64,000 nt of DNA. It comes from Candidatus Methylumidiphilus alinenensis. GTDB lineage: Bacteria; Pseudomonadota; Gammaproteobacteria; Methylococcales; Methylococcaceae. The stretch lies in NCBI GenBank assembly GCA_003242955.1, contig QJPH01000360.1:1-64000 (forward strand), read 5' to 3'. Positions 967 through 32,993 of this stretch are shown one piece after another (the stretch's first letter is position 1; each line of letters begins with the position of its first letter). A model generated the notes under the pieces. The model did no database searches and had not been told where the DNA came from. It saw only the letters and a program-made list of their open reading frames with translations. Made by a program: the position numbers and the translations under genes.

Positions 967-1302
967 ATGGCAGAATTTGCCGGAGCCAACATTATGCCAG
1001 TCGAAACCGCAAAACTGATCGACATCGCCAGCGGTGCCACTGATAGCCTCACTAAAGCGGCTAACGCCGTTGCCGCCAGTGCGGTCGGAAAAACGGGCAT
1101 CACCGCAATCAGCACCGCCAGTCCGGTGCCTATTCTTAACGTCATTCACGCGATTACCCTTGCCCATCCTTTGGCAATGCTAGGATTTGTGGGTGGCTCT
1201 CTGGTGCTGCTCGGCCTGCACGACCGAGTGCGCCTGAACCGGGAAGACAAACAGCCAGCCCAGGCAGCGGCTGGGCTGGCATCGCCTGAAAACATTTGGT
1301 GA
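967..1302 (+). CDS. Small hypothetical membrane protein (111 aa)
   Basis: ORF with hydrophobic segment VIHAITLAHPLAMLGFVGGSLVLLGL; first ORF inside the inverted-repeat-bounded block. Confidence 0.55.
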   Translation: MAEFAGANIMPVETAKLIDIASGATDSLTKAANAVAASAVGKTGITAISTASPVPILNVIHAITLAHPLAMLGFVGGSLVLLGLHDRVRLNREDKQPAQAAAGLASPENIW

Positions 1303-1324
1303 AATGACATAGGTTGCTGATTAA

Positions 1325-1411
1325 ATGTTAGAGTCCATTGAAATTAAACACTTCCGTTGTTTTAAACACACTAGAGTTGCAAAGTTTACTGCGGTCAATC
1401 TTTTTGGTTGA
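1325..1411 (+). pseudogene. Remnant of an AAA (RecF/OLD-like) ATPase N-terminus
   Basis: ATG at 1325: MLESIEIKHFRCFKHTRVAKFTAVNLFG*, resembling the pre-Walker-A start of AAA_15/21 ATPases, truncated before Walker A; followed by NELKDFLNSFK*. Confidence 0.5.
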
Positions 1412-1489
1412 ATGAATTAAAAGATTTTCTAAACAGTTTTAAATGACACCAAAATGTCGACTGGTCATTAACATATTGATTAAACGGTA

Positions 1490-2413
1490 ATGTTCCCATC
1501 CGACGAGACCGTGGCAGCCACCCCCCCGCGCAAACCCGAAGCCAAACCCGGCATCAGCCCCGACAGCGGGAATACGAGCCGCAAGGCCCGCTTCCGCCGC
1601 TGGCTGTGGCGGAAAACACCTTATATATTCGTGTTCATGCTGCTGTTGGTGCTGTCGGCCTTGTTTCTGTGGTACCGCATCGTCATCGTCATCGAACCGG
1701 GCAAGACCGGGGTGCTGTTCCGCCTGTTCACCGGCACCCAGATCGACTATGCCTATCCCGAGGGGCTGCACGTCATAAGTCCGCTCAACACGATGTACAT
1801 CTACGAAACGCGCAAGCAAATTGCCTTGCACGATTTTGACGTGCTGACGGCCAAGGGTTTGACGGTGCGTGTGTCACTGGCAGTCCGCTACCAACTTGAC
1901 AAGGACCGGCTTGGCCTGTTGCATCAGAAGATCGGACCCGACTACCTAGTCCGCGTCATCCTTCCGCAGGCCGAGTCGGTCATGCGTAAGGAATTGGGCG
2001 GCTACACGGCGGAGGACATTTACACCAACAAGGAAGGTTTGTTGACCAATGCGATCTTGCTGGCCCAGGAGGAAGTCGGGCGCAACTTCGTGCAAGTGGA
2101 TGAGATCATCATCCGCAGCATTACCCTGCCGGAGAAAATCAAAAGCGCGATTGAAGACAAATTGACCCAGGAAGAACTGTTGAAGTCCTATGAATTCCGC
2201 TTGCAAACCGCAGGCCAAGAAGCGGAGCGCCAGCGCATCGAAGCCGAAGGACTCAGGGTTTACAATGAGACCGTCGATAAGAGCCTGACCGATAAGATAT
2301 TGACGTATCAAGGGATCAGCGCGACCCAAAACCTGTCCAAATCCGACAATGCCAAAGTCGTCGTTATCGGAGCAGGCAAGAACGGTTTGCCGCTGATTTT
2401 GAACACACAATAG
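1490..2413 (+). CDS. SPFH/prohibitin-like membrane protein
   Basis: N-terminal TM (YIFVFMLLLVLSALFLWYRIVIVI), then EPGKTGVLFRLFTGTQ...YPEGLHVISPLN and coiled-coil AGQEAERQRIEAEGLRVYNETV typical of SPFH proteins. Confidence 0.85.
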   Translation: MFPSDETVAATPPRKPEAKPGISPDSGNTSRKARFRRWLWRKTPYIFVFMLLLVLSALFLWYRIVIVIEPGKTGVLFRLFTGTQIDYAYPEGLHVISPLNTMYIYETRKQIALHDFDVLTAKGLTVRVSLAVRYQLDKDRLGLLHQKIGPDYLVRVILPQAESVMRKELGGYTAEDIYTNKEGLLTNAILLAQEEVGRNFVQVDEIIIRSITLPEKIKSAIEDKLTQEELLKSYEFRLQTAGQEAERQRIEAEGLRVYNETVDKSLTDKILTYQGISATQNLSKSDNAKVVVIGAGKNGLPLILNTQ

Positions 2414-2421
2414 AGCGCGGT

Positions 2422-4266
2422 ATGCCCACTAGGCTTATGCCATTTATCTTGCTCGCCTTGTCAGCCGTGGCCGGCTGTGGCCTTGATTACGAGGATGCCG
2501 CCAGACACCGCTTGGAATACGCCCGCCTAGGCTTGGGCAATATTGTCGTCGCCGCCATAGCAGAGCCCGAGTCGGCAAGCTATATCAATGGCATCAAGCT
2601 GGCGGCGAGGCAATTGAACGGGCAGCCGGGGAAATTGCTGGGGCGCAGGGTCAGCCTACTGCTGGAACCCGCCACCGGGGCGACATTTGACGACTCTAGG
2701 GGTGCTATCCTCAAACTGGCCGAAAACCCAAGAGTCAGCGCGGTGTTGGGGCATCGCCGCGCGGAGCTTGCCATTCCGTCCGCGGCAATTTATGAGGCTA
2801 GCAAGCTTATTTTCATGCCGCCCTTTGCCACGGCACAAGGGCTGACCGACCTTAATTACCGCTATGTGTTTCGCATGTTGCCCAACAACCAGGTGATGGC
2901 CGGGCAAATCGCCAGCGTGGCCGCACTGCTCGGTCACAAAAACATCGTGCTGCTTTATGCCGAAGACGAATACAGCCGGGAATTGGCGTTCCTGTTTGAG
3001 GAAGCGGCCATAGCGCAGGGCATGGGCTTAGTGCAGCGGCACTCGTTCAAACCTAATGGAACTGACTACCGAGAGTTGATTGCCCAGTTTGCCAACCAGC
3101 CTATGGACATGGTGTTTCTCTCCGCAGGTGCGGTGGACTCGGCACAGATGGTGCGGCAGTTGCGGGACATGGGCGTGAAAGTGGCTATCATGGGCGGGGA
3201 AGCCCTTAACACACACACGTTCAGCGAGGCGGTTGGCGCAGCCGGTGACAATACCATTGCTCCTGTGTCCTATAGCGCCCAGGCCAACAACCCGGCCAAC
3301 CAGGCCTTCATTGCCGAATACCGGCAGCTTTATGGCATTGTGCCAGACGAAGGTGCGGCGCAGGGCTACGATTCTATGCGGCTTTTGGCCGATGCGATTG
3401 AACGGGCCAAATCGACGGTGCCAGCACTGGTTTCCGCAAGCCTGCATTACCAGTCGTTTTGGACGGGTTTGACCGGTCTCTACGCCTTCGACAGGCAAGG
3501 CGAGGTGTCTGGCAAAATGTATTTTTTTCGCGTCTTGCGCGGCGGGGTCTGGCATTTTTTACCGGCTGTGCATAGACCCTACGCCTTGGAGCGCTTTGAC
3601 CACCGCATCGGCTCGCAGCCGAACCGAAAAACTCCGGTCACAGACTTTGCCAAAGCGTTTTCGGCCAACCTCCATCCCGACGACTTGCGTATTCTGCAAC
3701 TGGATTTTTTGCATGAGCTGTTGCGATTCCAGGACCTAGGCGTGGTCTACGGCGGACAGAACACAGCAACAATCCCAGGCGGCGTGGAACGTGTCATGGC
3801 GCTAGGCGAACAGCGGGGGTTCAGGGTAATCACCTGCGGCGTGGACTTTTCCGTCCAAGACCAGCAGCCGCTAGAACGGCAACTACTGGGTTGCTACGGG
3901 AAACTCGCCGACAACGTCGACGCGCTGAACATCACAGGCTTCGATGGGGTGGGCAAGGATGTTGCCGTGCGTCTGCAACGCCCGCTCAAAGACTATAAAA
4001 TCCCCGTTCTGGCACTGCAAGGCGATACTGGCTTCGATGAAGGACTGTCCATCCGCATCGGCGGGTTCGGGGAAAAGCGAAACATCCAGGGGGACTTTAA
4101 CACCGAACTATTCGGCGGAATTTTGTACCGCGTCAAGCCGCACGAACTGGCGGAAAAGCTGGATAACATGCCGGTGTTGCGGGGGAATTTGAACGTCTTG
4201 GACGATTATCGTTTGTTGCGCTCTGGTAACCAAGCGGGATTGGTGCCAGATATCGATCTAGAATAG
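2422..4266 (+). CDS. Lipoprotein with tandem type-1 periplasmic-binding-protein-like domains
   Basis: Lipobox-like SAVAGC; first half LivJ-like (INGIKLAARQLNG... NNQVMAGQIASVAALLGHKNIVLLYAEDEYSRELAFLFEEAA); second half (LGVVYGGQNTATIPGGVERVMALGEQRGFRV...) also PBP-like. Confidence 0.75.
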   Translation: MPTRLMPFILLALSAVAGCGLDYEDAARHRLEYARLGLGNIVVAAIAEPESASYINGIKLAARQLNGQPGKLLGRRVSLLLEPATGATFDDSRGAILKLAENPRVSAVLGHRRAELAIPSAAIYEASKLIFMPPFATAQGLTDLNYRYVFRMLPNNQVMAGQIASVAALLGHKNIVLLYAEDEYSRELAFLFEEAAIAQGMGLVQRHSFKPNGTDYRELIAQFANQPMDMVFLSAGAVDSAQMVRQLRDMGVKVAIMGGEALNTHTFSEAVGAAGDNTIAPVSYSAQANNPANQAFIAEYRQLYGIVPDEGAAQGYDSMRLLADAIERAKSTVPALVSASLHYQSFWTGLTGLYAFDRQGEVSGKMYFFRVLRGGVWHFLPAVHRPYALERFDHRIGSQPNRKTPVTDFAKAFSANLHPDDLRILQLDFLHELLRFQDLGVVYGGQNTATIPGGVERVMALGEQRGFRVITCGVDFSVQDQQPLERQLLGCYGKLADNVDALNITGFDGVGKDVAVRLQRPLKDYKIPVLALQGDTGFDEGLSIRIGGFGEKRNIQGDFNTELFGGILYRVKPHELAEKLDNMPVLRGNLNVLDDYRLLRSGNQAGLVPDIDLE

Positions 4267-4315
4267 CTGGTCTCCTCCCAAAACATAGGATTACAGTAAG
4301 CGAGGGTATATCGTT

Positions 4316-4489
4316 ATGGTCAACCAATTTGTCATTATCGTGGTCTATTTCGGGCTTTGCCTGCTGGTGGCGTTCTTAGGGACGAAAAGAAAATGGGGGT
4401 TCTGGGGCTATCTTTGGTCGTCCATCCTGTTCTCCCCGCTGCTGGGACTGATTTTTCTGCTGGCCTCCGATCCCAAACCGAATCGCTAA
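4316..4489 (+). CDS. Small membrane protein, 57 aa (not in supplied ORF track)
   Basis: MVNQFVIIVVYFGLCLLVAFLGTKRKWGFWGYLWSSILFSPLLGLIFLLASDPKPNR*; two hydrophobic helices in a gap between co-directional genes. Confidence 0.6.
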   Translation: MVNQFVIIVVYFGLCLLVAFLGTKRKWGFWGYLWSSILFSPLLGLIFLLASDPKPNR

Positions 4490-4570
4490 GGCCCACCCTT
4501 GGAGCCGCGCATGCCCCTATTGCTATATATGCTAAGCTTTTTCCCCAAGCTACCAGCCACTTGCCATTAC

Positions 4571-4644
4571 CGGGAGTGCGATGCTTGTCTTGATAGGATT
4601 TATAAATGGTTGGGAACCCAGCAAGGCAAGCCTTGCACTCCGCT
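4571..4644. repeat. Palindromic REP-like element, upstream copy
   Basis: cgggagtgcgatgcttgtc ... ggcaagccttgcactccg imperfect inverted repeat; related to 6238-6292. Confidence 0.6.
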
Positions 4645-4657
4645 CCTGCTTAACTTA

Positions 4658-6214
4658 ATGGCGGTGAGTCTGCCGGCGGGAATAGGCGCACTATCCATTG
4701 CCTTGCTCATGGCCGTCTGCCTTGTGTTTGCCCCGGGCCAAGCCCGTGCGACCGGGGCGACACCGCAACAGGAGATGCAAGGAAAACCGGACGATCTGGG
4801 AAAATCCATTGCCTCGCTGCGTGCGGCGGTGGACAGGCTGGGTCAGGACACCCGGTCTAACGCAAAATCCATAGAGGATATCAAGGCCAAACTGGAGGAA
4901 AACTCGATCTTGGTTTACCAGCATCTGTCCAAGGACATGGAAGCGGCGGATCGGCTGGAGGAACTGGCGGTTCGCGTCCGCGGGATGGGGGGAGGGGAAG
5001 CGGCTAGGGTGACAGCCAGTCCGCCGCCCGCCGTCCCGGTGGCTGCAAGCCATGCCGCGCCTTCCGAACCAGCGAATGACACCCATGCCATGCCGTTGAG
5101 GGCTTTGGCATCGGCACTGTTGACCTTGATCGCTCTACTGGGGTTTGCCTTGCTGGAAGCCTCGCAACTGGAAAACTGGGCGGTTCCGCAGGCGGGGCTG
5201 CGCAATCTTCTGCTGGCATCGGCACTGGGCCTGACCTATTTCGCGATCAGCCACTGGGAGATGCTAGTCGAGCCGGGGTCTGCGACCAACGGCGATTTGG
5301 CGCAAGCACTGTGCCAGACAGCCTTGGCCTCGGTGACGGGATTGGTGGTCGCGACGATTTTGTCAGATCGCCTGTCCCTGCCGGCCTATTTGTTCCTGGC
5401 CGTAATATTGGGCGCGGCGGCTTACCCGGTGCTAGAACAGTGGGTCTGGAGCGGCCAGTCGCTGCCTGGTCAGGCCGGCTGGCTGGAACGAAGGGGCTTC
5501 GTGGACTTTGCCGGGGCCACCACCATCCATTCCTTCGCCGCTTGGTTTGCTCTGGCCTGGTCTATCCGTCTGCCACTGTCAAGAACTCTCGCGCCGACCG
5601 GGGACAGTGTCCAGGCCAATGCGTCCTTAGGCCTGCTTGGCCTTTCCGTCGTCTGGTTCGGTTGGTTTGGCATAGGCATTGGACATTCAGGGGGCGGAAA
5701 CCTAGGCATCGCACCGCTGGCCCTTAATATATTGCTGGCCGGGGCTGCTGCCCTGCTAGCCTCCCTCTGCGCCCTGGCATGGGTTCGGGATGCCATGCCG
5801 GACGCGGTGTATGCGCGGATTTGCGCGGCTACCGTGGGTGGCTTGGTGGCTGTCTCGGCGGGAGTGGCCTGTATATCGCCCGGCGAGGCCGTTGCCATCG
5901 GCATCTTGGCGGGTTTATTACAGCCTGCGGCCTACCGCGCCCTGTCGGCAAGGCTGATCAAGGACGACCAAGTCGCTGCCAACCTAGTCGCCGCCCACGG
6001 CATCTGCGGCATGTTGGGGACGCTCTGCGTTGGGCTGTTCGCCAGCCCCGGAAGCTTCGCCATGCCTGAGTTCGGGCAACTAGAGATACAGTTAGTCGGT
6101 ATCGCAGCCGTGTTGAGTTATGGCCTGGCCGCAGGCTTTGCCGGCGATTGGTTATACCAAGGCGCTGTCAAGCTCAATGCCTTGCGTGTGCCGACCCAAC
6201 GCACCAGGGAATAA
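4658..6214 (+). CDS. Divergent ammonium-transporter (Amt)-like membrane protein with N-terminal extracytoplasmic coiled-coil
   Basis: Start moved from 4499 to ATG 4658 (signal peptide MAVSLPAGIGALSIALLMAVCLVFAPGQARA). Amt-like motifs: RGFVDFAGATTIHSFAAWFALAW, LLGLSVVWFGWFGIG, DDQVAANLVAAHGICGMLGTLCVGLFA; His kept in TTIHSF and AAHGIC. Confidence 0.75.
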   Translation: MAVSLPAGIGALSIALLMAVCLVFAPGQARATGATPQQEMQGKPDDLGKSIASLRAAVDRLGQDTRSNAKSIEDIKAKLEENSILVYQHLSKDMEAADRLEELAVRVRGMGGGEAARVTASPPPAVPVAASHAAPSEPANDTHAMPLRALASALLTLIALLGFALLEASQLENWAVPQAGLRNLLLASALGLTYFAISHWEMLVEPGSATNGDLAQALCQTALASVTGLVVATILSDRLSLPAYLFLAVILGAAAYPVLEQWVWSGQSLPGQAGWLERRGFVDFAGATTIHSFAAWFALAWSIRLPLSRTLAPTGDSVQANASLGLLGLSVVWFGWFGIGIGHSGGGNLGIAPLALNILLAGAAALLASLCALAWVRDAMPDAVYARICAATVGGLVAVSAGVACISPGEAVAIGILAGLLQPAAYRALSARLIKDDQVAANLVAAHGICGMLGTLCVGLFASPGSFAMPEFGQLEIQLVGIAAVLSYGLAAGFAGDWLYQGAVKLNALRVPTQRTRE

Positions 6215-6237
6215 AAAGGACATCCCAAAAGGGATGC

Positions 6238-6292
6238 GGGAGTGCAAGGCTTGCCTTGCGGGCATTGACAGGCAAAGCAAGCCTTGCGTTCC
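6238..6292. repeat. Palindromic REP-like element, downstream copy
   Basis: ggagtgcaaggcttgccttgc ... gcaaagcaagccttgcgttcc inverted repeat; core aaggcttgcc shared with 4571-4644. Confidence 0.65.
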
Positions 6293-6504
6293 AAGCGTAA
6301 TTTCAATGACCTTCCGATGTGGACGCATCACTTTTAATAGCACCCATCGAACTGAACATGCAAAAAAAAATATTCAAGCTATAATGGCCTATAAGGATTA
6401 TGTTTTGCATGAAATTGGCCAAGGTAGGCGGCTTGTCGGGTTTTGATAAACGCCCCTTAGGATACAATTACCTCTCAATGCATAAAAATTAACTGGAGAA
6501 AACC

Positions 6505-7041
6505 ATGACATCACCAGACTCTGCCATACCGATTGAAGAAAAACTCACAGCGTTTGCCCGTGCAGAACGGTTGGCCCGCGCCCGCAGCCTCGCCAAAAAC
6601 TATGTGCTGGCTTCGGCCAGCATCGCCCTGATCCCTTTGCCGCTTGCCGACTTGGCCGGTATCATGGCCCTGCAAGTCAAGCTGGTGCATGGCTTGGCCA
6701 AACATTACGAAGTGCCGTTCAAGGAAAGTATTGTCAAGTCGCTGGTTGCCTCACTGCTCTCCGGCGCTTCTTCGGTCATCGGCGTATTGGGGCTAGCCAG
6801 CTTCGCCAAGATCGTCCCTGTGCTGGGCACCCTGGCCGGGGGAGGCGGCGTGGCGGTCACCGCCGTGTCCGTGACATATGCCACGGGCGAGGTTTTCATC
6901 CGGCATTTCGAGTCCGGCGGCACCTTGTTGGATTTCGATCCCGACAAGGTGAGGGCGTTGTTCAAGCGCGAGTTGAAAGCCAGTGAGGCTACTACTGAAG
7001 TTGCCGATACTTCTGATTCCACCTCAACCAAACCCGCATAG
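6505..7041 (+). CDS. DUF697-like membrane protein
   Basis: ASASIALIPLPLADLAGIMALQVKLVHGLAKHYEVPFKESIVKSLVASLLSGASSVIGVLGLASFAKIVPVLGTLAGGGGVAVTAVSVTYATGEVFIRHFESGG matches the DUF697 (YcjF-like) pattern. Confidence 0.8.
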   Translation: MTSPDSAIPIEEKLTAFARAERLARARSLAKNYVLASASIALIPLPLADLAGIMALQVKLVHGLAKHYEVPFKESIVKSLVASLLSGASSVIGVLGLASFAKIVPVLGTLAGGGGVAVTAVSVTYATGEVFIRHFESGGTLLDFDPDKVRALFKRELKASEATTEVADTSDSTSTKPA

Positions 7042-7156
7042 TCAACGGGTCTGCCGCTATTGCGTCGAAACGGAAAAAACCGCCCATCCCCAACTGGACA
7101 TCCGGCCAATGTGGCATGTGCCGCCAAGGCCACCAACCATTTAGGGTATTGCCTCC

Positions 7157-8848
7157 ATGTTCATACTTGAAACCTTTATCCTCGGTAGTCTGGCTTATGC
7201 GGGTGGCAAGCTTCTCTTTCGCAGCAAACCCGCACCGGACGAAAACCCACAGACAGGCAAACAGTCCATCCTGGATCCGGCAACCGGGCCGAAACAAGGC
7301 CAGCAAGCATTGACCCAAGCCCAAGCCAGGCGCGACCTGTGGGCATCTTCGGCAGCATTGGGCTTGGCAGTGGCTGGCACAACGTTGCGCCTGCCGTTCT
7401 TCAGCCTTGCCAGCCTTCCCATCATGTTGCTGGTGTTTGCAGCCACCTACGGCGAGGCTTGGCAAGCGCTATGCCGACGGCGCGTGGACTCGCACGTATT
7501 GGACGCCACCCGCATCAGCGTATGCGTGGTCATGGGCTATACCGTCATCGCCGCGCTCAACGCCCTGCTCCACGCGTCAAGCCAGCGCATGCTCCTGCGT
7601 TCGGAAGAAGAGATGCGCAATACTTTGCAGGAGTCGTTGGGCCTTGAAGATCGCGTGGCTTGGGTCGAGTGCGATGGCATTGAGATACAGGTGCCCTTGG
7701 AGCAAGTCAAGCCTGGCTTAGTCATGGTGCTGCGCGGCGGCAACACCGTTCAGGCTTCCGGCATAGTGCTCTCGGGCAACGCGATGGTCTGCAAGCGCTT
7801 TGCCGAAGACCAGGCGACCGAGGCCACGCCGGGTGTCTGGCTCGCTAAGGATACCCGGATACTAGCCGGATTGATTTGCCTCTGCGCGAAGGCTGCACCC
7901 GAGACATCCTCTGGCTTGTACGGACAGTTGCAGGATGGCCCTTTAGCGCAGACCCCACTGCGGCAGATTGGTGAGAGCGTAGGTAGGCATATGGCACCTT
8001 GGATGCTGACCGCTTTCGCCCTGTCCACGCCGTTGATGGGCATCAACCGTGCAGCCGCGTTCCTGACCACCAGCTTCGGTGCGCAGATGCACCGCCTAGG
8101 CCCTTATACCGCTCGTCAATTTATCGGCTTTGCCTCGCACCACGGCATCCTGATCCGCGATCCCCTCGCCTTGGAATTGGCCAATCTGGTGAACACGGTC
8201 ATTTTCGATGCCCGCGTGTTGGAGCATCCCGCCGCCCGTCCCCATGTCGCCGGACTCGTCTATGCACTGAGGCTTAGGCCATGGCCGACTAGCGACGCAC
8301 TGGCCCTGCCTTTCGCCACCTATGCCATGTCCACGAACGAGGACCAGGGACGCCGGTTGGCAGATGATTTTGGCTTGGACGGTTATTTTATCGAAGCCGA
8401 AGGTTCCGTGCGGGCCAATCTAATCGGGGAGTTGCAATTGGGCGGTCGAATAGTCTGCTATGTGGGTACCGGCGACGAGGATGCGGAGGCAATGCAAACC
8501 GCCATACTTTCCGTGGATGTCCGCGAACCTTCCGATCTAAGCGAAACCAATGCCCACATCGTGCTTCTGGATCCACGCCTACGCGGGGTGCTCGGCATTT
8601 TCGGCCTAGCAAGGCTATTCTTCGCCAAGCAAAGATTCAACTTGCTCGCCCCATTTGGGATTGATCTGATCGATATTTCAACAACAGTTTTCCTGCATTT
8701 TGGCTTGTTCTACTCGGTGCTGCTTTCCTACACAGGGCTTTTGACCGGCATGGCCCAGGCGAACATGCCGAAAGTCCAGCCCGCTGCCCTGCCGAAAGCA
8801 CCGCTTCCGCCCACCCCCGGCGAAGAAAGTCGGAAATTCATCGCATGA
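7157..8848 (+). CDS. Degenerate (pseudo-enzyme) P-type ATPase
   Basis: Same architecture as the next gene (ARQFIGFASHHGILIRDPLALELANLVNTVIFDARVLEH; terminal TTVFLHFGLFYSVLLSY), but DKTGT is DARVL, TGE is absent (EDQATEATPG) and GDGxND is GTGDEDA. Confidence 0.85.
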   Translation: MFILETFILGSLAYAGGKLLFRSKPAPDENPQTGKQSILDPATGPKQGQQALTQAQARRDLWASSAALGLAVAGTTLRLPFFSLASLPIMLLVFAATYGEAWQALCRRRVDSHVLDATRISVCVVMGYTVIAALNALLHASSQRMLLRSEEEMRNTLQESLGLEDRVAWVECDGIEIQVPLEQVKPGLVMVLRGGNTVQASGIVLSGNAMVCKRFAEDQATEATPGVWLAKDTRILAGLICLCAKAAPETSSGLYGQLQDGPLAQTPLRQIGESVGRHMAPWMLTAFALSTPLMGINRAAAFLTTSFGAQMHRLGPYTARQFIGFASHHGILIRDPLALELANLVNTVIFDARVLEHPAARPHVAGLVYALRLRPWPTSDALALPFATYAMSTNEDQGRRLADDFGLDGYFIEAEGSVRANLIGELQLGGRIVCYVGTGDEDAEAMQTAILSVDVREPSDLSETNAHIVLLDPRLRGVLGIFGLARLFFAKQRFNLLAPFGIDLIDISTTVFLHFGLFYSVLLSYTGLLTGMAQANMPKVQPAALPKAPLPPTPGEESRKFIA

Positions 8849-10917
8849 TGGCGAAGCTGTTCAAGCCCAGTAAAACCTTGGGCGAAATCCTCGCGCTGCA
8901 AACGCCTGATTTTGGTCAGACGGATGAACGGAGCGAAGGGCTGCAGGGTTTGTCGGCTTGGCTGGCCCCCACTCAGCCATCCGCTCCTAAGCCGGCCAGA
9001 ACCGGCTACCAAGTGCAAATGGAGCATATTTCCAGCCCCGCTGAGCTTCAGCGCCGCTTGGAGCGCAGCCGTTACAACGACCGCAAAATCAAAATCGCGG
9101 TGGCTTCCTTAGTCTGCGCCACACTGGGGCAATGGCTGTGGCCGCTGAATCTACTGTGCATACCCTGCATTCTTTTTAACAGCGGCCATTGGTACAAAAA
9201 AGCCTACGACCTAGCCAAGCAAGGCCGGGTCGGTGTTGGCACCATCTTCGTGTTCACCGTGACAGGGATGATTCTCAACGGCTATTTCTGGATCGGTAGC
9301 CTAGTCTCGCTGGTCGCGCAATTGTCAATCAAGCTCACCAGCATGGTGACGGACGACTCGCGCAACCGGCTAGTCGACATTTACCGGCAGGTGCCAAATA
9401 CCGCCTGGTTGCTGGTCGATGGCATCGAAACCGAAACGCCATTGGCGCAAATACGCGTCGGTGACAAGGTTGTCGTCAATGCTGGGGAAATCATCCCAGT
9501 GGATGGAACGGTCTTAGCCGGGCAAGCTCTAGTTGACGAGCAAATGCTGACCGGCGAGGCCCACCCGGTCGAAAAGGCTTTGGACGAAGCCGTGTTCGCC
9601 GGCACGGTGCTGCTGGCAGGCCGCCTTGAGGCCCGGGTGGACAAGTCCGGCGGTGACACCGCCATCGCCCGCATTGGCCAGATTCTCAACAACACCATCG
9701 AATACAAATCCACCGCCCAATTACGCGCCGAAATCCTGTCCGACCGCACCGTAGCACCGACCCTGCTGGCCGGCCTAGTGGCTTTTCCACTATTGGGTCC
9801 CATGGGTGCCTTGGCGGTGGTCGATACACACTTCCGCCAACGTTTGTCCATTCTCTCGCCGTTGGCTTTGATGAACTACCTCAACATCGCATCCCGCCAT
9901 GGCATCCTCATCAAGGATGGCCGATCTTTGGATTTGCTACACCAGGTCGATACCCTAGTGTTCGACAAGACCGGAACTCTCACCGACGCGCAACCTCGGG
10001 TTACCGCCGTCCACGCTTTTGTCGGGGGTTATTGCGATGCGGATATACTGAGATTTGCCGCCGCTGCCGAGCATAAGCAATCCCATCCCATTGCCTTGGC
10101 CATCCTCGCCGAGGCGGCGCGGCGCGGCTTGGGTGTGCCGCTAGTGGACGAATCCGAGTACAAGATCGGCTTTGGCTTATGCGTGGCTGTCGAGGGCCGC
10201 GAAGTTCGGGTCGGCAGCCGACGCTTCATGGAATCATCCGGGATCAGCCGTCCAGAGACCTTGAACAGCATCGAGGCTCATTGCCACGCCAAAGGCCATT
10301 CCTTAGTGCTGGTGGCTTGCGACGGCGCACTGGCCGGGGCGGTGGAACTGGCGCCCACGGTGCGGCCACAGGCCAAGGCCATCATCGGCGAAATCAAGCG
10401 CCGCCATGGTATCACCGCCACCTATATCATCTCCGGCGACCAAGATGCCCCCACCGCCAAGTTGGCGCATGAACTCGACATCGACCATTACTTTGCAGAA
10501 ACTCTACCGGAGGAAAAGGCCGCTTTGATTGAGCGCCTGACCAACGAAGGCCGCTTCGTCTGTTACATCGGCGACGGCATCAACGATGCCATCGCACTAA
10601 AAAAATCCCATGTCTCCATTTCTCTGCGGGGTGCGTCGACGGTGGCGACAGACACCGCGCAAATAGTTCTTATGGAAAGCGATTTGGACCATCTGGTGAA
10701 GCTGTTCGACTATGCCCACGAGTTCCGTACCAACACCGACATCAGTTTCGCCGTCGTCGCCGGCACCACGCTGATCGGCATCAGCGGAGCGTTTTTCCTG
10801 CATTTTGGCTTGGCGCAAACCACAATGCTGTCAGTCGGCTCAATCGTTATCGGTGTCGCCAATTCGATGCGTCCCCTACTGCACCACCGTGCGGGACAGA
10901 ATGTGAGGCAGAGCTAG
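8845..10917 (+). CDS. P-type ATPase, P1B-like, intact catalytic motifs, no CPC motif
   Basis: MLTGEAHPVEK, DTLVFDKTGTLTDAQP, SHPIALAIL, YIGDGINDAIALKKSHVSISLRGASTVATDTAQIVL; pre-phosphorylation helix reads RLSILSPLALMNYLNIASRHGILIKDG, with no CPC. Confidence 0.9.
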   Translation: MMAKLFKPSKTLGEILALQTPDFGQTDERSEGLQGLSAWLAPTQPSAPKPARTGYQVQMEHISSPAELQRRLERSRYNDRKIKIAVASLVCATLGQWLWPLNLLCIPCILFNSGHWYKKAYDLAKQGRVGVGTIFVFTVTGMILNGYFWIGSLVSLVAQLSIKLTSMVTDDSRNRLVDIYRQVPNTAWLLVDGIETETPLAQIRVGDKVVVNAGEIIPVDGTVLAGQALVDEQMLTGEAHPVEKALDEAVFAGTVLLAGRLEARVDKSGGDTAIARIGQILNNTIEYKSTAQLRAEILSDRTVAPTLLAGLVAFPLLGPMGALAVVDTHFRQRLSILSPLALMNYLNIASRHGILIKDGRSLDLLHQVDTLVFDKTGTLTDAQPRVTAVHAFVGGYCDADILRFAAAAEHKQSHPIALAILAEAARRGLGVPLVDESEYKIGFGLCVAVEGREVRVGSRRFMESSGISRPETLNSIEAHCHAKGHSLVLVACDGALAGAVELAPTVRPQAKAIIGEIKRRHGITATYIISGDQDAPTAKLAHELDIDHYFAETLPEEKAALIERLTNEGRFVCYIGDGINDAIALKKSHVSISLRGASTVATDTAQIVLMESDLDHLVKLFDYAHEFRTNTDISFAVVAGTTLIGISGAFFLHFGLAQTTMLSVGSIVIGVANSMRPLLHHRAGQNVRQS

Positions 10918-10966
10918 GCGTGAAAATCGTCACATTCCCAACTGCGCATTTTTAAAAGGTTTGATA

Positions 10967-11644
10967 ATGAGTATTTTCGTCATTGTAATTGTGGCTCTGT
11001 TCCTTGGATTGCTGGTAGCTTTCGCCCTGCTACTGGGGGGTTACTGGGAAGTTCCTGAGCAGATACTAGAGAAAATCATAGCGTTAACAGGGAAACGGCC
11101 TGACCCCCATGTGAAATTTCGCGCCTGGGTGGAAAGCGACTTGGTGGAAATCCAGCCTTTGCAGGCATGGCTGTTGTCTTTGCACGAAGCCGGGTTCCAG
11201 GCACTGACCGAGAGGGTGGTGAGTTTTTGCGCCGACTTGAACATCCAGTTGTCTTGGCTGGTTGAACGGCAAATTGATGTGGCCCCGGCTTTGCGCCAGG
11301 CCACCAAAACCATCGTCGTGGATTACTTGGAAGTTTGCTGGCAGGCAATCCGCCACCAAGGCGACGTTGCCTTGTTCAGCAAATACCACAAGCTGGTCTC
11401 CAATCCATCCGACACTCGTTACCGCGATGTGCGCCGCAAGCTGTTCACCCGTCTGACCGCCTTGGGGCTAGCCGAGCCTTTGCCGGCGTATGAGCTTATC
11501 ATGGCATCCGAACTTCAGCGGCAGACACTGGCGGCAAACGCTATCCGCAAGGCCGCAGCCAAGGACTGGGACGGTTTTGCCAGGATATTCAACGAACTGT
11601 TGGAAAATGATGCCGCAAACAAACCGGCAACCCAAGCGATTTGA
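10967..11644 (+). CDS. Membrane-anchored protein of unknown function (225 aa)
   Basis: N-terminal TM MSIFVIVIVALFLGLLVAFALLLGGYW; ATG 10967 preceded by aaaagg; rest predicted soluble and helical by eye. Confidence 0.7.
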   Translation: MSIFVIVIVALFLGLLVAFALLLGGYWEVPEQILEKIIALTGKRPDPHVKFRAWVESDLVEIQPLQAWLLSLHEAGFQALTERVVSFCADLNIQLSWLVERQIDVAPALRQATKTIVVDYLEVCWQAIRHQGDVALFSKYHKLVSNPSDTRYRDVRRKLFTRLTALGLAEPLPAYELIMASELQRQTLAANAIRKAAAKDWDGFARIFNELLENDAANKPATQAI

Positions 11645-11665
11645 GCGGATGCGCAAGGACAGGCG

Positions 11666-13273
11666 ATGCCCAAGCTAATCGCGTATTTACTCCAAGAGCC
11701 TGACTTTCCCAGGGGCAGAGTAGTGTTCATGGTGGTCGTCTCCGGCTTGGCCGGGGGGGCTCTGCTGGCCGCCATCAACCTATCCGCCGCGCAAATCGCC
11801 GCAGGCGGACTAGACCCCCGACAATTTTTCATTGCCCTGACGCTGCTGGCACTGACCATCTATGGGCAGCACCAGGCACTGGGGCAAACCACTTTGGCAG
11901 CCGAGGAAGTCCTGCTGAAATTGCGTTTGCGGATAGGCGACAGGCTGCGCCGCGCCGACTTGCGCCTGGTCGAGGCCGAACTGGCACAGGACGGTTGCCC
12001 TGCCCTGACCAACGACACCCAACTGGTTTCCCAATCCGCCCTGTCCTTGGCCCTGCTTGCCCGCTCCTCCCTGGTAGTGGCGGCCAGCTTGGTTTATCTG
12101 GGCTGGATTTCCCTAGCCGCCCTGCTAGTGACACTAGCCTTCATCGGCACCTACGCGTTCATTTACCGGGCCTTCATCCATCTGAACTTGGAGTTGAAGT
12201 TGCGGGAGGGCCAAGCCTTGGAGAAGGGATTTTCCAAACGTGTGCAAGAACTGTTGACCAGTTTTAAGGAAATCAAACTCAGCCAGAGCAAGAGCTGTAG
12301 GCTGTTTGATGATTATGGGCGCTGCGCCATTGCCATCAGCGCTAACAAACGGGCCGCCAACGCCGAGATTGCCAACAGTTTGACCATTGGATACAGCAGC
12401 TTTTACCTGTTGCTCGTCGTGCTGGTCATGGTCATCCCCACCCTGGACAAGGGACTCGCCGGACATGTGTTCAAAATCACCGCCACGGTCATTTACATAC
12501 TATCCGAGTTGGACCCCTGGCTAACCTGGATACCCGAAATCGTCCGTGCCGATGCCGCACTGGAGAATCTATGCCATTTGGAGGAAAAGCTTCAGGCCGC
12601 CCCCTATGGCGACAGCGGACGGTATCAGGGCAAGCCCCTACACAGCTTTGCCAGCTTGGGCCTGAAAGCTGCGGTGTTCCGCTACCCTGGGCAGCACGGT
12701 CAAACCCCGTTTGTGCTAGGGCCCATCGAACTGTCCATCATGCCGGGCGAAATGCTGTTCGTCACCGGCCGCAACGGTAGCGGCAAGACCACCTTGCTAA
12801 AACTGCTTGCCGGACTTTACCGCCAGGAAGCAGGGACGCTACGGCTAAACGGCGAACCTTTGGAGGCCGACAGCTATCCCGCCTACCGGGAATTGTTCGC
12901 CGCTTTATTCGCCGATTGCCATTTGTTCGAGGATTTGCACGGTCTGGCAGACGCCGACTCAAAACAACTCGGCCATTGGCTGGAAACCATGGGCTTATCC
13001 GGTCAAACTGGCGGTATGCCCACCCCGCAGGCTCTTTCCAACGGGCAAAAAAAGCGCCTAGCCTTAGTCGCCGCATTGCTGGAAGACAAGCCCGTGTATA
13101 TTTTTGACCAATTCGCGGCCGACCAGGATGCCGAATTCCGCGAAAAGTTTTACCGGAAAATCCTACCTAGCCTGCAACGGCAAGGTAAGACCGTCATCGC
13201 GGCAACGCACGACGACCGTTATTTCGACATCGCCGACCGTGTTTTGCTGCTAGCCGGAGGACGGCTGGCCTAG
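11666..13273 (+). CDS. ABC transporter (TMD-NBD half transporter), cyclic-peptide exporter SyrD/PvdE-like, Walker B Glu to Gln
   Basis: Walker A GRNGSGKTTLLKLLAGLY; signature LSNGQKKRLALVAALLEDKPVYIFDQFAADQDAEFREKFY; H-loop AATHDDRYF. Confidence 0.85.
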   Translation: MPKLIAYLLQEPDFPRGRVVFMVVVSGLAGGALLAAINLSAAQIAAGGLDPRQFFIALTLLALTIYGQHQALGQTTLAAEEVLLKLRLRIGDRLRRADLRLVEAELAQDGCPALTNDTQLVSQSALSLALLARSSLVVAASLVYLGWISLAALLVTLAFIGTYAFIYRAFIHLNLELKLREGQALEKGFSKRVQELLTSFKEIKLSQSKSCRLFDDYGRCAIAISANKRAANAEIANSLTIGYSSFYLLLVVLVMVIPTLDKGLAGHVFKITATVIYILSELDPWLTWIPEIVRADAALENLCHLEEKLQAAPYGDSGRYQGKPLHSFASLGLKAAVFRYPGQHGQTPFVLGPIELSIMPGEMLFVTGRNGSGKTTLLKLLAGLYRQEAGTLRLNGEPLEADSYPAYRELFAALFADCHLFEDLHGLADADSKQLGHWLETMGLSGQTGGMPTPQALSNGQKKRLALVAALLEDKPVYIFDQFAADQDAEFREKFYRKILPSLQRQGKTVIAATHDDRYFDIADRVLLLAGGRLA

Positions 13274-13322
13274 GCGGGCAACAGCTCTTTTTTTCATCGA
13301 CTTGAGATCAACGGGTGACACC

Positions 13323-14126
13323 ATGGCCGAGATTATTGATCAAACGAAGCCAAGCGAGGCAGATGGCCCCGCTACGGAAAAGACGGGGGGCCAAGGCCTG
13401 CCACCTTGGCGGATGTTCGCCATCGTCGCCGTCGCCAGTGCGAGCGGCGGATTGGCCGGGATACTGGCCGTCAAAGGGCTTTTGGCCGCGAAAGGACTGA
13501 CGGCTGCCCACCTAGCCTGGGGGCTGGAAGGAGTGGCGAAGGCCAACGCGGCATCCGCCACCCTGCTGCCTTCAAGCCAAGCGGCTCTAGGAACGCTGGC
13601 CCCGTCTGCCGCTGCATCCCCTTTGCCCAGCACTGCGGTTAGCGCGGCTGGCTGGGCCGATAAACTAGCGGCATTCTGTGGCAAACTGGCACAAAACCCC
13701 CTCATCGCCGGCACCGTCGGCGGTGCCGGTACTGGCTTGGGGGTGGCGGCTGGCAAGCTCTCCGGGGTACGCCAGCAATTGGAGGAACATCTAAGTCGCA
13801 TTGAGGCATTAGGACATGAGACCGCGCAGATAAAAGCCGCCTTCGTGGAAACAGACGGCACAGGTGGGCGCAAGACCGGGCGCTCCACGGCGGACGCGGA
13901 ACGGCTGGAAGATATCGTCGGCATCGGGGAAGTCTATGCCGAAAGGCTGCGTGTAGCGGGCGTGACCAGCTTCGCCGGATTGACCACCCTGTCGGCTGAG
14001 CGCATCAAGGAAATCGTCGGACGAGGGCTTCCCCTGTCCATCGAGTCCATCCGATCTTGGATCAAACAGGCGGATGCCTTGGCCAAGGGCAGGCATCCTG
14101 AAGCCGACGACTTAAATCATAAATAG
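13323..14126 (+). CDS. Membrane protein with C-terminal helix-hairpin-helix (DUF4332-like) domain
   Basis: Hydrophobic N-terminal half; C-terminus RLEDIVGIGEVYAERLRVAGVTSFAGLTTLSAERIKEIVGRGLPLSIESIRSWIKQAD. Start placed at ATG 13323 (MAEIIDQ). Confidence 0.7.
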   Translation: MAEIIDQTKPSEADGPATEKTGGQGLPPWRMFAIVAVASASGGLAGILAVKGLLAAKGLTAAHLAWGLEGVAKANAASATLLPSSQAALGTLAPSAAASPLPSTAVSAAGWADKLAAFCGKLAQNPLIAGTVGGAGTGLGVAAGKLSGVRQQLEEHLSRIEALGHETAQIKAAFVETDGTGGRKTGRSTADAERLEDIVGIGEVYAERLRVAGVTSFAGLTTLSAERIKEIVGRGLPLSIESIRSWIKQADALAKGRHPEADDLNHK

Positions 14127-14567: not shown

Positions 14568-15923
14568 ATGGCAAGCAATGATAATAAAAGCAAATTACAC
14601 CTAGGCAGCTTCGACTCGGAACGCTTTTGGCGTGCGCCGACATTAAGCCAATTGCCTAGCGTGGTCGATGCCCAGGCCGATGCTATCGTCGCCGTCATGG
14701 ATGAATTAATGTTTGCCGCTTGTCACGCAGAGGGTGGCCTGTTGGTTACCCGTAGACCCATGGACAAAACCCATGTGGATTACCTGCGAGAAACCGGTTT
14801 TCGGTTTTCCCGAAACGAAAAGCCCGTGGAGACCGACGAAACTATTTCAGGCAACGACGCTATTTGCGGTTTGCTTCAAGCAGCCGCGAATCGAGCGTAT
14901 TTCAGCGAATTGTTTTCCGGCTTGGGCGGCCTTTCCCCTTATTCCGTGCTACCCACGACGCAGCCGTTTTGCCAGCATTACGGCATTGCACAAAAAATTC
15001 CCAGCATTGAGGCCGTCAGGAAAGCCAATTCCAAACTGTTTTCCCATGCACTGGAAATCGAGGAACTCGGCGAGTGGCATGGCGAGACGATAGATTCAGC
15101 CGCCGAGCTGGAAAAAGTAGGCAAGCACCTGCTTAAAAACACCACTATTTTGATCAAAGACGACTTCGGGGTTTCCGGCAAAGGAAATTTGCTAGTGGAT
15201 TCACCCCAATTATTGGAAAGAATCGCCCGGCATATTGGAAAGCAGGAAAAAAATGGCAAACAAACTCGATTCTTGCTGGAACCATTGCTGGACAAGGCAC
15301 TGGATTTTTCCTGCCAATTGGAAATCGGCCCAACTGGCGAAGTGACGATTATTTCCGTGCAAAAAATGGTGAACGCCGGTTTTGCTTTTGCCGCCATTCA
15401 AACGGCGGGGCCGATGTTTATGGAAGGCTTGGACAAGGCGGGTTATCTGGACAAAATGCAAACTGTGGCGGCGGGGCTTTACCGGGAAGGCTATTTTGGC
15501 CCCGTCTGCATCGACTCCATGCTGCTTAAGGACGGCAGCATTCGCAGCGTGGTGGAAATCAACGCCCGGCAATCCATGGGGTTCATCAACCATCATATCG
15601 ACCGTTTTCTTGAACCGTTTTCGGCCCAGGGGAGCTTGCTGTTTTTCTCTTTGGGCCTGACTAAGCCGGTCTCATTTGATGAGATTTTGCACAAGATGGG
15701 GGAGGACGCTATCCTGTTCCGGTCAGACCGGCCAGAAGGGATTTTGCCACTCTCAGCCCATACCTTGTCGGTCAACCGGAAAACCCAAACCAGCAGCGAC
15801 ACGCCCTACAAGGGCCGTTTTTACGCGTCCCTCGTCGCCACCGACTCTTTAGCCCGACTGGGCCTGAAAGAGAAGATGGAACAGGTTTTTGCCAAGTTGG
15901 GTATCCGGGTGTTTACGCAATGA
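14568..15923 (+). CDS. ATP-grasp domain protein
   Basis: TTILIKDDFGVSGKGN, ...GYFGPVCIDSMLLKDGSIRSVVEINARQSMGFINHHID typical of ATP-grasp ligases. Confidence 0.75.
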   Translation: MASNDNKSKLHLGSFDSERFWRAPTLSQLPSVVDAQADAIVAVMDELMFAACHAEGGLLVTRRPMDKTHVDYLRETGFRFSRNEKPVETDETISGNDAICGLLQAAANRAYFSELFSGLGGLSPYSVLPTTQPFCQHYGIAQKIPSIEAVRKANSKLFSHALEIEELGEWHGETIDSAAELEKVGKHLLKNTTILIKDDFGVSGKGNLLVDSPQLLERIARHIGKQEKNGKQTRFLLEPLLDKALDFSCQLEIGPTGEVTIISVQKMVNAGFAFAAIQTAGPMFMEGLDKAGYLDKMQTVAAGLYREGYFGPVCIDSMLLKDGSIRSVVEINARQSMGFINHHIDRFLEPFSAQGSLLFFSLGLTKPVSFDEILHKMGEDAILFRSDRPEGILPLSAHTLSVNRKTQTSSDTPYKGRFYASLVATDSLARLGLKEKMEQVFAKLGIRVFTQ

Positions 15924-17020
15924 ATGGCGAGAATGGCGAAACCCTCGCCATACTCTGCTCAGGTTCGTCGCTAGGAGCTTATGTACCTGGCTTGTTGCTT
16001 TGGCGGCAATTTGCGGAAAAGGGCTTTGAAACCGATACATTCCTGTTGGAAAACTATCTTCTGGCGGAAAAGCGAGACAATATCCTCAAGACCAAACTCG
16101 CTTTCCACCGCAATTTTTCCATTGCCCGGATCGCGCAGAAATTGACCGGCGATATTACCCACAGTCTGGATCAAGAAAAAGTATCAAAACTTTTGTCTGC
16201 TTGGCAGCAAAAGCAGCATAAGCGATTCATCGTGATATATGGTTTCTGGATGCCGATTATCGAGCAATATTTGAGCATGGAACCGGGACTGGATATTGCG
16301 GTTGATCTGTGCCATATGGATGCCGTCACCTCGGTTTCCTGGAAACTTTATAACCGAACAAACCCCCGATATCGGCCTATTTGGTTTTTTAGTTGGCAAG
16401 ATAAATCCCTGCCATACCGCCTATCAGTCACTGCCGATGAACCCATTGCCTATGCCAAACGGTCAGGCCGGTTTTTGATCCATGGCGGCGGTTGGGGGCT
16501 GGGCAGTTACCAAGACAAAATCCCCGAGTTGGCCACGCACGGAATCCCGTTGGATGTCACCGTATATGAAAACCAGGATCTCGAAAACCGGCAGCTTGGA
16601 AACCGGTATTTTCTGATCGACCCGGCTTGGAAGGCGTGGGAGCGGGATGAGTCGGGCAAACACCACTTCCCACCTTTTGGCGAAGTGATGGGGGACGATC
16701 CTGTTGTATTTTCCCATAACCCGTCTTGCCCGGAGGTTTACGGGCTGGTCCGGCATAACCAAGCGATTATCAGCAAGCCGGGCGGTGCCACCTTGGTGGA
16801 TTCCTTGTCAGCCGCCACGCCGTTGATACTGTTGGAGCCTTATGGCGAATACGAACAAAAGAACGGCGAATTATGGGAATCCATGGGTTTTGCCATTTCG
16901 TACCAAAAATGGGCAGACACGGGATATTCAACCGAAGTGCTTGAAGATTTGCATGTCAATTTGCTGACTGCGCGTGCGCGAACCATCAATTATGTAGAGG
17001 CATACAGCAATGCAGCCTGA
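15920..17020 (+). CDS. GT-B-like glycosyltransferase-related protein
   Basis: C-terminal HNQAIISKPGGATLVDSLSAATPLILLEPYGEYEQKNGELWESMGFAISY resembles the donor-binding half of GT-B enzymes; overlaps both neighbouring genes. Confidence 0.5.
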   Translation: MNGENGETLAILCSGSSLGAYVPGLLLWRQFAEKGFETDTFLLENYLLAEKRDNILKTKLAFHRNFSIARIAQKLTGDITHSLDQEKVSKLLSAWQQKQHKRFIVIYGFWMPIIEQYLSMEPGLDIAVDLCHMDAVTSVSWKLYNRTNPRYRPIWFFSWQDKSLPYRLSVTADEPIAYAKRSGRFLIHGGGWGLGSYQDKIPELATHGIPLDVTVYENQDLENRQLGNRYFLIDPAWKAWERDESGKHHFPPFGEVMGDDPVVFSHNPSCPEVYGLVRHNQAIISKPGGATLVDSLSAATPLILLEPYGEYEQKNGELWESMGFAISYQKWADTGYSTEVLEDLHVNLLTARARTINYVEAYSNAA

Positions 17021-18185
17021 AACCACCGTTAAGATCGACCCGGCAGAATTCGACCGGATGAAGAAAGCCATGGCTAACCAGTCCAAGGCCATCCGTGGAC
17101 GGAAAACCAACCCGGCTTATGCCGCGCCGGCACCGGAAGAAGTCGGCATCCAACTGACCTACCGCTGCAATATCCGTTGCGAGCATTGCTTCCAGTGGAA
17201 TGACCAAGGGTTTTTCCACCACCTCAGCAAGGAAGAACAGCGCGATGAATTGTCCGCCGAGGTTTTTGAAAAAATCCTGTTTGAAACCCGCGAGGCCAAA
17301 TCCAACTTGTATTTGTGGGGCGGCGAGCCGACCGTGCACAAGGAGTGGGATGCGCTGAGCCTGATGCTGGAAAAAGACCCGCGCTGGACCGTCCTCTGCA
17401 CCAATGGCTTGTTGATCGAGCGCAAGCTGGAATCCATCCTGCGCATTTCCGCAAACACGGTGATGCTGGTCAGCGTGGATGGCTTCAAAGAGCAGCACGA
17501 TGCGATCCGTGGCAAGGGTACGTTCGATAAAACCATGCACCACATCAAACTGCTGTTGGAACTGCAAAAAACAGGTGAATTCAAAGGCAAGGTTTCGATG
17601 ACCTTGGTGTTGAGCGACAAGTTCATCCCCAATCTGTACGAATTTGCCGATTACTGCGAAGGCATTGAAGGCATCGATAGCCTATATATCGTCTACCCCT
17701 GGTACATCACGGAGGCTGTCGCCAACCAGATGGATGCCTATTACAAGCAAAACTTCGCCTGGTTAAACCGCCTGCCGTTGCAACCTAAAGCCAGTTGGCA
17801 TTCCTACACATTCCATGTCGCGGAAGAAATGGTTGCCAACCTGCGCGAGCAGATGGCTAGGCTTAACAGCCGGTCTTGGAAAATCCGCTTGCGTTTCCAG
17901 CCGGCACTGGAGGCGGACGAGTTCGAGCATTTCGTTACCGGCACCCAACAGCCTGGTCAGCGCCGGACTCAATGCTTGTCCATTGCCAACCGCATGGACG
18001 TGCTGGCCGACGGTAGCGTCAGCTCCTGCAAGCTGTATCCCGAGTTCAGCGTCGGCAACTTGTACAAGGAAGGCGTCATGGAAATTTGGCAGGGCGAGAA
18101 GTTCCGCCGGGTCAGGGAAATTCTCGCGCAAGGCCTGACGCCAATCTGCTCCAAGTGCGTGTTGCTGTACCTGCATGGCCGTTGA
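17010..18185 (+). CDS. Radical SAM/SPASM protein
   Basis: TYRCNIRCEHCFQW (CxxxCxxC); SPASM-like QCLSIANRMDVLADGSVSSCKLYPEFSVGNLYKEG...ICSKC. Confidence 0.9.
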   Translation: MQPETTVKIDPAEFDRMKKAMANQSKAIRGRKTNPAYAAPAPEEVGIQLTYRCNIRCEHCFQWNDQGFFHHLSKEEQRDELSAEVFEKILFETREAKSNLYLWGGEPTVHKEWDALSLMLEKDPRWTVLCTNGLLIERKLESILRISANTVMLVSVDGFKEQHDAIRGKGTFDKTMHHIKLLLELQKTGEFKGKVSMTLVLSDKFIPNLYEFADYCEGIEGIDSLYIVYPWYITEAVANQMDAYYKQNFAWLNRLPLQPKASWHSYTFHVAEEMVANLREQMARLNSRSWKIRLRFQPALEADEFEHFVTGTQQPGQRRTQCLSIANRMDVLADGSVSSCKLYPEFSVGNLYKEGVMEIWQGEKFRRVREILAQGLTPICSKCVLLYLHGR

Positions 18186-18197
18186 CAGGTTGCATTC

Positions 18198-18794
18198 ATG
18201 TCCCTCAAATATGTGCAAATAGAAACCACCAGCACCTGCAACCAACGTTGCTTTTTCTGCCCTGTTTCCATCGAAAAAAAGGCCAAGGTGCAACTGTCCA
18301 CGGAACGGCTGGATCAAATTATCGACGGGCTGAAACAATATCCGATAGAAAACATCGCCATCAGTGGCTTCACCGAGCCGACCCATGATAAGGACTTGGT
18401 CGGCAAGGTCGCCGCGCTAAGGGTGGCGGGTTTCAAGGTATCGATTTTTACCAACGGTTCAGGCTTGAAGCCTGAGCTGACCGACCAATTGCTGATGCTA
18501 GGCGTCAGTGGCTTTACCCTCAACCTGTCCACACTGAATGAGGACGAGTATCGTGAAACCCGCGGCACCCAGGATCTGCGCCGGGTCATTCCCAATATTG
18601 ACTATCTGATCGCCCAAACGCCGGTCCAGGACAAATCGGTGGAAATCACGATAGCCGTCATCGGAAGGCTTGACGGGCAACATGCAAAAAACCTCAGGGA
18701 AATTGACAGCAAATACGCCGATGCCGGTGTCGTCAATATCCTCATCATTCCGATGGTGGAGTTTGCCGGCAAATCGCCCGCAGTGTTGCGGTGA
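18198..18794 (+). CDS. Radical SAM protein, short (198 aa), no SPASM domain
   Basis: ETTSTCNQRCFFCPVS (CxxxCxxC); ends at a stop after MVEFAGKSPAVLR. Confidence 0.85.
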   Translation: MSLKYVQIETTSTCNQRCFFCPVSIEKKAKVQLSTERLDQIIDGLKQYPIENIAISGFTEPTHDKDLVGKVAALRVAGFKVSIFTNGSGLKPELTDQLLMLGVSGFTLNLSTLNEDEYRETRGTQDLRRVIPNIDYLIAQTPVQDKSVEITIAVIGRLDGQHAKNLREIDSKYADAGVVNILIIPMVEFAGKSPAVLR

Positions 18795-18842
18795 TGTCGG
18801 GATGGTCATTGATTATTTTGAGCGTCAGGAAGTGAGCAAGGC

Positions 18843-20921: not shown

Positions 20922-20922
20922 T

Positions 20923-21786: not shown

Positions 21787-21813
21787 CATTCAGAAATCCG
21801 TGCATAAATAACT

Positions 21814-22608: not shown

Positions 22609-22617
22609 AAAATCCCG

Positions 22618-23769: not shown

Positions 23770-23771
23770 GC

Positions 23772-25244: not shown

Positions 25245-25510
25245 GCATACAAGACGAGCTTTATCAACTGATCATCAAACGCTACTTGATGGGCAGGGTA
25301 CCGGATGGGTTTGACAAAAGCTCCAATTTAATTGACAGCGGCATTCTGGATTCTTTCATGCTGGTCGGCTTGGTATCCCATATCGAAAAGCAATACGGGG
25401 TTAAATTCGGCAGCGGCGATATAGTCACGGAGAACTTTAATTCCCTGCCTGCGTTGGAAGCGGTTATCCAGCAAAAACTTCAGCAAAAAGAGAATTCTGA
25501 TTATGAATAA
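25241..25510 (+). CDS. Acyl carrier protein
   Basis: 89 aa; phosphopantetheine motif SGILDSFMLVGLVSHIEKQYG; ATGA overlap with the ligase gene. Confidence 0.85.
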   Translation: MSIQDELYQLIIKRYLMGRVPDGFDKSSNLIDSGILDSFMLVGLVSHIEKQYGVKFGSGDIVTENFNSLPALEAVIQQKLQQKENSDYE

Positions 25511-32889: not shown

Positions 32890-32993
32890 GCAGGCAATGG
32901 TGGGCTACGGTGCGCGTCAAGCTCGATACTGTTTGGTGTTGAAAAATGCGGTAACAATAAATGTGTGATATTAAAAACGCTGTAGGGTGACGA

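Follow-up and report, generated by a model that had tools for sequence, protein, structure and literature searches.

A membrane and periplasmic gene module with a CPC-less P-type ATPase adjoining a hybrid NRPS/PKS cluster in Candidatus Methylumidiphilus alinenensis

Introduction

We analyzed a window of 64,000 nucleotides from Candidatus Methylumidiphilus alinenensis (contig QJPH01000360.1, positions 1 to 64,000), in which ten genes on the (+) strand (g1 to g10) fill positions 967 to 14126 and encode nearly exclusively membrane or periplasmic proteins. These genes come back together in distant bacteria, as a rule next to genes for making antibiotic-like small molecules, and the module looks like an undescribed accessory machine for exporting or handling such compounds. 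We see an even chance that g1 to g10 form the membrane/periplasmic accessory module of the adjoining hybrid nonribosomal peptide synthetase/polyketide synthase (NRPS/PKS) cluster, drawn from a modular set found repeatedly in Pseudomonadota. For many NRPS/PKS products, little is known of how they are exported and how producers protect themselves, and a recurrent module with a cluster-diversified P-type ATPase would offer a handle for genome mining.

P-type ATPases are also present in the miuraenamide (miu) hybrid NRPS/PKS cluster of Paraliomyxa miuraensis. There, orf16 and orf23 are annotated as “heavy metal translocating P-type ATPases”, and the cluster further encodes a hemopexin-repeat protein and a “GTPase” of 164 aa that finds its best match in Ca. 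Methylumidiphilus; the authors assigned these genes no function (PMC10051162). The likeness to our module, P-type ATPases in a hybrid NRPS/PKS setting, is drawn from the published table. Judging from the same table, the 164-aa GTPase is probably a DUF697 protein, and its combination with a hemopexin protein recalls another contig of the genome studied here (C251), on which DUF697, MACPF-hemopexin and NRPS pieces occur together. Unlike our module, the published miu table contains no SPFH protein, binding protein or Amt.

Further similarities are found at the level of single proteins. The best family match of g7, the intact P-type ATPase of the operon, is to the P1B heavy-metal ATPases (CopA/ZntA; TIGR01525), with which it shares the fold and the motifs DKTGT, TGE and GDGxND. 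The g7 group nevertheless forms a separate clade (support 100/100) without the CPC or MxxSS metal-site motifs of these pumps. With FezB, the P1B-6 ATPase of ferrosomes, the module may have in common a P1B-related pump beside membrane proteins without an assigned role; the ATPases here are tied to NRPS/PKS genes. The ATP-binding cassette (ABC) protein g9 reaches 282.4 bits against SyrD/YojI-type cyclic-peptide exporters (TIGR01194), just under the curated cut-off of 286.2, and differs by its own Walker B Gln in place of Glu. Finally, g2 has the membrane-anchored SPFH fold in common with the HflK/HflC complexes, but scores 19.7 bits versus an HflK cut-off of 159, and there is no FtsH partner in the operon.

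Organization of the operon and the adjoining cluster

The window contig is C7 of a 6.6-Mb assembly (genome G000; comparison genomes are coded Gnnn). Open reading frames (ORFs) were called with a simple script, neighboring genes were identified by BLAST and Pfam, and the contigs are short. The ten genes are separated by gaps of −4 to about 290 bp:

967–1302, (+): g1, small one-helix membrane protein of 111 aa, no Pfam match
1490–2413, (+): g2, SPFH/Band_7 protein with N-terminal anchor (Band_7, 9.6e-24)
2422–4266, (+): g3, HAAT-type lipoprotein (Peripla_BP_6, 1.2e-38), followed at the C-terminus by an additional alpha/beta domain
4499–6214, (+): g4, Amt channel (Ammonium_transp, 8.1e-42), extended at the N-terminus by a signal/coiled-coil region
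6505–7041, (+): g5, short DUF697 membrane protein (DUF697, 1.4e-11)
7157–8848, (+): g6, P-type pseudo-ATPase without N domain, DKTGT, TGE or GDGxND
8845–10917, (+): g7, P1B-like ATPase (P1B ATPase, 5e-117) that is catalytically intact but lacks CPC; 4-bp overlap with g6
10961–11644, (+): g8, conserved protein of one membrane helix plus a soluble helical domain, not matching any known family
11666–13273, (+): g9, SyrD-like (TIGR01194) ABC protein (cyclic-peptide ABC, 6.6e-84)
13302–14126, (+): g10, membrane protein with a helix-hairpin-helix (HhH) domain (HHH_5, 2e-4)

The original prediction, made from the sequence alone, had described at least nine co-directional and tightly spaced genes of mostly membrane or periplasmic function; ten are present, and its SPFH, lipoprotein, Amt, DUF697, P-type ATPase, SyrD-like ABC and HhH assignments all hold at the level of domain matches. 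Promoter-like and terminator-like matches at the operon do not exceed chance, so a single transcript for g1 to g10 is plausible at most.

The (+) strand runs on past position 14126, with the next gene at 14568, into a hybrid NRPS/PKS cluster (14568–39848) that contains modular C, A and T as well as KS and AT domains:

14568–26384, (+): g11 to g20, tailoring and transport genes, with two radical SAM proteins, a second ABC exporter, two GT2 proteins, an FAD oxidoreductase, an AMP ligase and DUF1796
26434–39848, (+): biosynthetic genes, with an NRPS (C-A-T-C-A-T), a carbamoyltransferase, KS-AT-ACP-TE and an O-methyltransferase

The shared strand and the tight spacing into these genes are among the reasons for reading g1 to g10 as an accessory module. 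The adjoining cluster also restricts two earlier statements: the absence of a classical metabolic enzyme is correct within 967–14126 and fails directly behind it, and the idea of a self-standing envelope system finds no support, as the operon is directly attached to NRPS/PKS genes and its ATPase clade has a strong tie to clusters of this kind within the genome. Two loci from another family of the order (L100, G092:C88, and L102, G050:C91) have the order ATPase, FAD oxidoreductase, AMP ligase, NRPS; their identity to the window genes g18 and g19 is 49–57%.

A CPC-less P-type ATPase clade and its pseudo-ATPases

In a tree of 49 sequences, the CPC-less clade is separated from the CopA/ZntA-like, P2 and Kdp pumps (support 100/100). 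DKTGT is found in all 43 clade members examined, while a CPC-like motif (CPC/SPC/TPC) in transmembrane helix 4 (TM4) and the MxxS[SN] motif near the end occur in none (0/43 each). TM4 lines the transport site in P-type ATPases. It is highly variable between the paralogues of this clade, with a constant catalytic core, as would be expected if substrates varied from cluster to cluster.

The neighboring g6 lacks the entire nucleotide (N) domain in addition to all three catalytic motifs. Its dN/dS of 0.21–0.28 (0.21–0.23 by NG86) speaks against a decaying pseudogene, and the pseudo-ATPase is retained under purifying selection. The g6 type is found in three genera of two families; a scan of genome contigs with g6 gave just one close relative, and a search of plasmids with g7 gave weak matches without linkage. 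Another degenerate line reads DMTGS or DMVGS instead of DKTGT and adjoins an active relative in the tree. In G006 and G002 its gene is flanked by DUF697 on one side and g6 on the other, whereas on G000:C22 DUF697 is its only such neighbor; its pairing with g6 means that ATPase pairs without any competent partner exist. The module raises the questions of what cargo a P1B-like pump without a metal site carries and why dead copies persist.

The CPC-less clade also holds a single-copy active ATPase of many Methylococcaceae (859–900 aa). This ATPase is usually accompanied by a P-type pseudo-ATPase of 786–794 aa, mostly with a 160–220-aa protein in between, and has no link to NRPS/PKS genes (loci L090–L096 in G013, G015, G011, G023, G028, G007 and G024). 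At L092 the pseudo-ATPase was not called next to the active ATPase, and on G000:C214 (L046) the pseudo-ATPase stands alone.

Association with biosynthetic gene clusters

The genome contains 19 P-type matches. All six intact CPC-less ATPases of the g7 type are located on NRPS or modular PKS contigs (C2, C3, C7, C13, C180, C275), compared to none of the ten other P-type ATPases; including the degenerate copy on C22, which lies off such contigs, the ratio is 6/7 versus 0/9 (Fisher p=9e-4). NRPS/PKS contigs make up about 5–6% of the assembly. DUF697 genes are located on C3, C7, C13, C17 and C251. Among 369 genomes sampled from the class, the ATPase is present in nine, DUF697 in 13 and both in eight (p=1.4e-12, without phylogeny correction). 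In the phylum sample, all seven further ATPase places listed adjoin NRPS, carbamoyltransferase or module genes. The link between the ATPase and biosynthesis is strong without being universal: part of the copies serve different neighborhoods, several of them with EgtD-like methyltransferases. The module has EgtD-like genes at its flanks in G001/G003/G006, G075 and G339 as well, and on G317:C4 (60–100 kb; L151/L152) SPFH, binding protein and DUF697 genes lie near SelD-like, EgtB-like and EgtD-like genes resembling a selenoneine/ergothioneine pathway.

Recurrence of the module

Seven or more further bacterial families carry subsets of the ten genes, with variable gene order. The core consists of SPFH, binding lipoprotein, DUF697, P-type ATPase and peptide-type ABC exporter. 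An operon of SPFH, periplasmic binding protein (PBP) and Amt genes is present in four other metagenome-assembled genomes of the genus, and also in G030 and G014; within the genus, SyrD-ABC, g8 and a lipoprotein gene stand divergently beside it. G005 encodes g1, a lipoprotein, ABC, g8, half-ABC, ATPase and DUF697, whereas G075, from another family of the same order, encodes ATPase, pseudo-ATPase, half-ABC, g8 and ABC. In G172, SPFH and PBP directly follow a 6369-aa NRPS/PKS, with DUF697 adjoining. NRPS genes are likewise neighbors in G428 (NRPS-PKS-DUF697-SyrD), G531 (NRPS, ATPase, SyrD) and G339, which has one locus with g8 and four SyrD-like ABC genes and a separate one reading ATPase-PKS-NRPS-carbamoyltransferase-DUF697. 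G612 combines a PBP (sharing its reading frame with thrombospondin-3 and OmpA domains), DUF697, SPFH, ABC, ATPase and an adenylation-reductase gene, and G563 an ATPase, PBP, DUF697, C39-peptidase ABC, second ABC and SPFH. Other genera and families thus keep more than two of these genes together, so that the original prediction withstands the refutation it had set for itself. The predicted multi-protein membrane assembly, more than a simple importer, is borne out as a conserved module with a pseudo-ATPase kept under selection.

Periplasmic and accessory proteins

Relatives of g2 in other genera and families are 42–69% identical, and by the positive-inside rule its SPFH domain is probably periplasmic. 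Homologues of g1 adjoin SPFH/ABC genes in G005, G002 and G003. The proposed “tandem” binding protein g3 is half supported: one HAAT domain is clear, the C-terminal third is an alpha/beta domain, and with a mean pLDDT of 51 for the structure model only the first binding domain is secure. No LivH/M/F/G-type permease or ATPase domains are present among g1 to g10, in line with the missing LIV permease noted at the outset. A simple LIV importer is ruled out by the lack of these genes. The Amt channel g4, called divergent in the original prediction, retains the D-H-H conduction residues, with the Asp ahead of the first His and both pore His. The Amt homologues of G001/G003/G006 (L068, L071, L072) carry Leu instead of the second pore His and are possibly a non-conducting sensor form.

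In G317 and G122, P-type ATPases with an intact CPC begin with DUF697, joined on through a His-rich linker, and on G000:C251 DUF697 is fused to a g10-type HhH domain. These fusions tie g5 to P-type ATPases and to g10. On the latter contig (L080, 1348–5233), a MACPF-hemopexin protein lies beside DUF697 copies (one HhH-fused); g8 is present too, as are NRPS pieces where the contig ends. The structure model of g8 (pLDDT 74) is usable and has no match in the Protein Data Bank. The Walker B motif of g9 reads IFDQF, with Gln at the position of the catalytic Glu, where relatives have Asp or Glu. Both ATPase families hence contain apparently inactivated members, as originally predicted, which suggests that some subunits are structural or regulatory. 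An anti-phage defense system was also considered and rejected: PADLOC returned only generic ABC/AAA matches, on g9. None of the papers searched combines DUF697 with a P-type ATPase, and the tundrenone paper does not mention an ATPase.

Proposed role and alternative explanations

Inner-membrane pumps and peptide-type exporters, together with a periplasmic scaffold and receptor, beside the genes for a product are most economically read as export or self-protection, and we infer that one of these is most likely the role of the module. The g7 ATPase, with g6 as non-catalytic partner, and the SyrD/C39-type ABC proteins would carry the product, either free or lipid-linked, across the inner membrane. 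On the cytosolic side, the ATPases may be coupled to DUF697, g8 and HhH proteins; in the periplasm, the SPFH assembly and the membrane-anchored binding protein, with Amt where present, would receive or sense the ligand. The combined outcome would be export and self-protection.

Several observations weigh against this role. A transport substrate has been demonstrated for no member. Of the class-level homologues outside Methylococcales, 13 of 17 have no NRPS/PKS genes in the 8–20 kb inspected (4/17 do), G317 carries SPFH-PBP-DUF697 without an NRPS, and the Glu-to-Gln exchange in Walker B argues against g9 as a vigorous exporter. In M. xanthus, removal of ATPase-containing blocks from the miu cluster left the product in place: deletion of orf14-16 kept the yield unchanged, and deletion of orf19-23 raised the yield about tenfold and broadened the congeners (PMC10051162). 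The genes are thus dispensable for synthesis there, which fits a handling role without proving it. Miuraenamide is described as antifungal (PMC10051162), and removals in M. xanthus are therefore no test of tolerance.

A bolder and clearly less probable version is an undescribed natural-product complex in which the CPC-less P-type ATPases, dedicated pseudo-ATPases, DUF697 and the SPFH/binding-protein assembly pump or flip the metabolites themselves; if true, P-type ATPases would be a further class of natural-product transporter.

Two other explanations seem to us unlikely, and equally so. The first is a membrane microdomain or ferrosome-like compartment, in which the ATPases load an ion or precursor, biosynthetic enzymes are docked, and SPFH and pseudo-ATPase are structural. 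The SPFH scaffold, the selected pseudo-ATPases with their doubly degenerate pairs, and the many single-helix accessory proteins would suit it, but no compartment marker is known, the SPFH topology points to a periplasmic domain, and the gene set is a mosaic rather than fixed. The second is a ligand-sensing device, in which the HAAT lipoprotein and Amt would respond to amino acids, to ammonium or to the product, and so govern either ATPase/ABC activity or expression of the cluster. A HAAT lipoprotein without LIV permease and the His-to-Leu exchange at the second twin-His position agree with sensing, whereas no kinase or regulator is conserved alongside the module and the loci retrieved from G317, G172, G612 and G563 yielded no Amt homologue.

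Slightly more doubtful still is metal handling, with a metallophore as product and CPC-less ATPases moving metal to or from it. The P1B ancestry of the ATPases favors this, as do the G317 and G122 fusions, in which His-rich linkers connect DUF697 with metal ATPases of the CPC type, but the metal sites are missing throughout the clade and TM4 varies between paralogues. A chance accumulation of membrane genes without any relation to one another, in islands rich in genes, is highly improbable, for although order and composition differ among genomes, recurrence in many families, fusions and strong genome co-occurrence speak against it, the co-occurrence test already contradicts it, and synteny kept across other genera and families in effect excludes it.

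Flanking genes in the window

Immediately upstream of the operon is a short RelE/ParE-like ORF (480–731, (−); recognized by eye). Positions 44249–60203 encode a molybdopterin oxidoreductase, cytochrome bd subunit I and a sulfatase, followed by an OEP-HlyD-FUSC efflux set, all apparently unrelated to the cluster.

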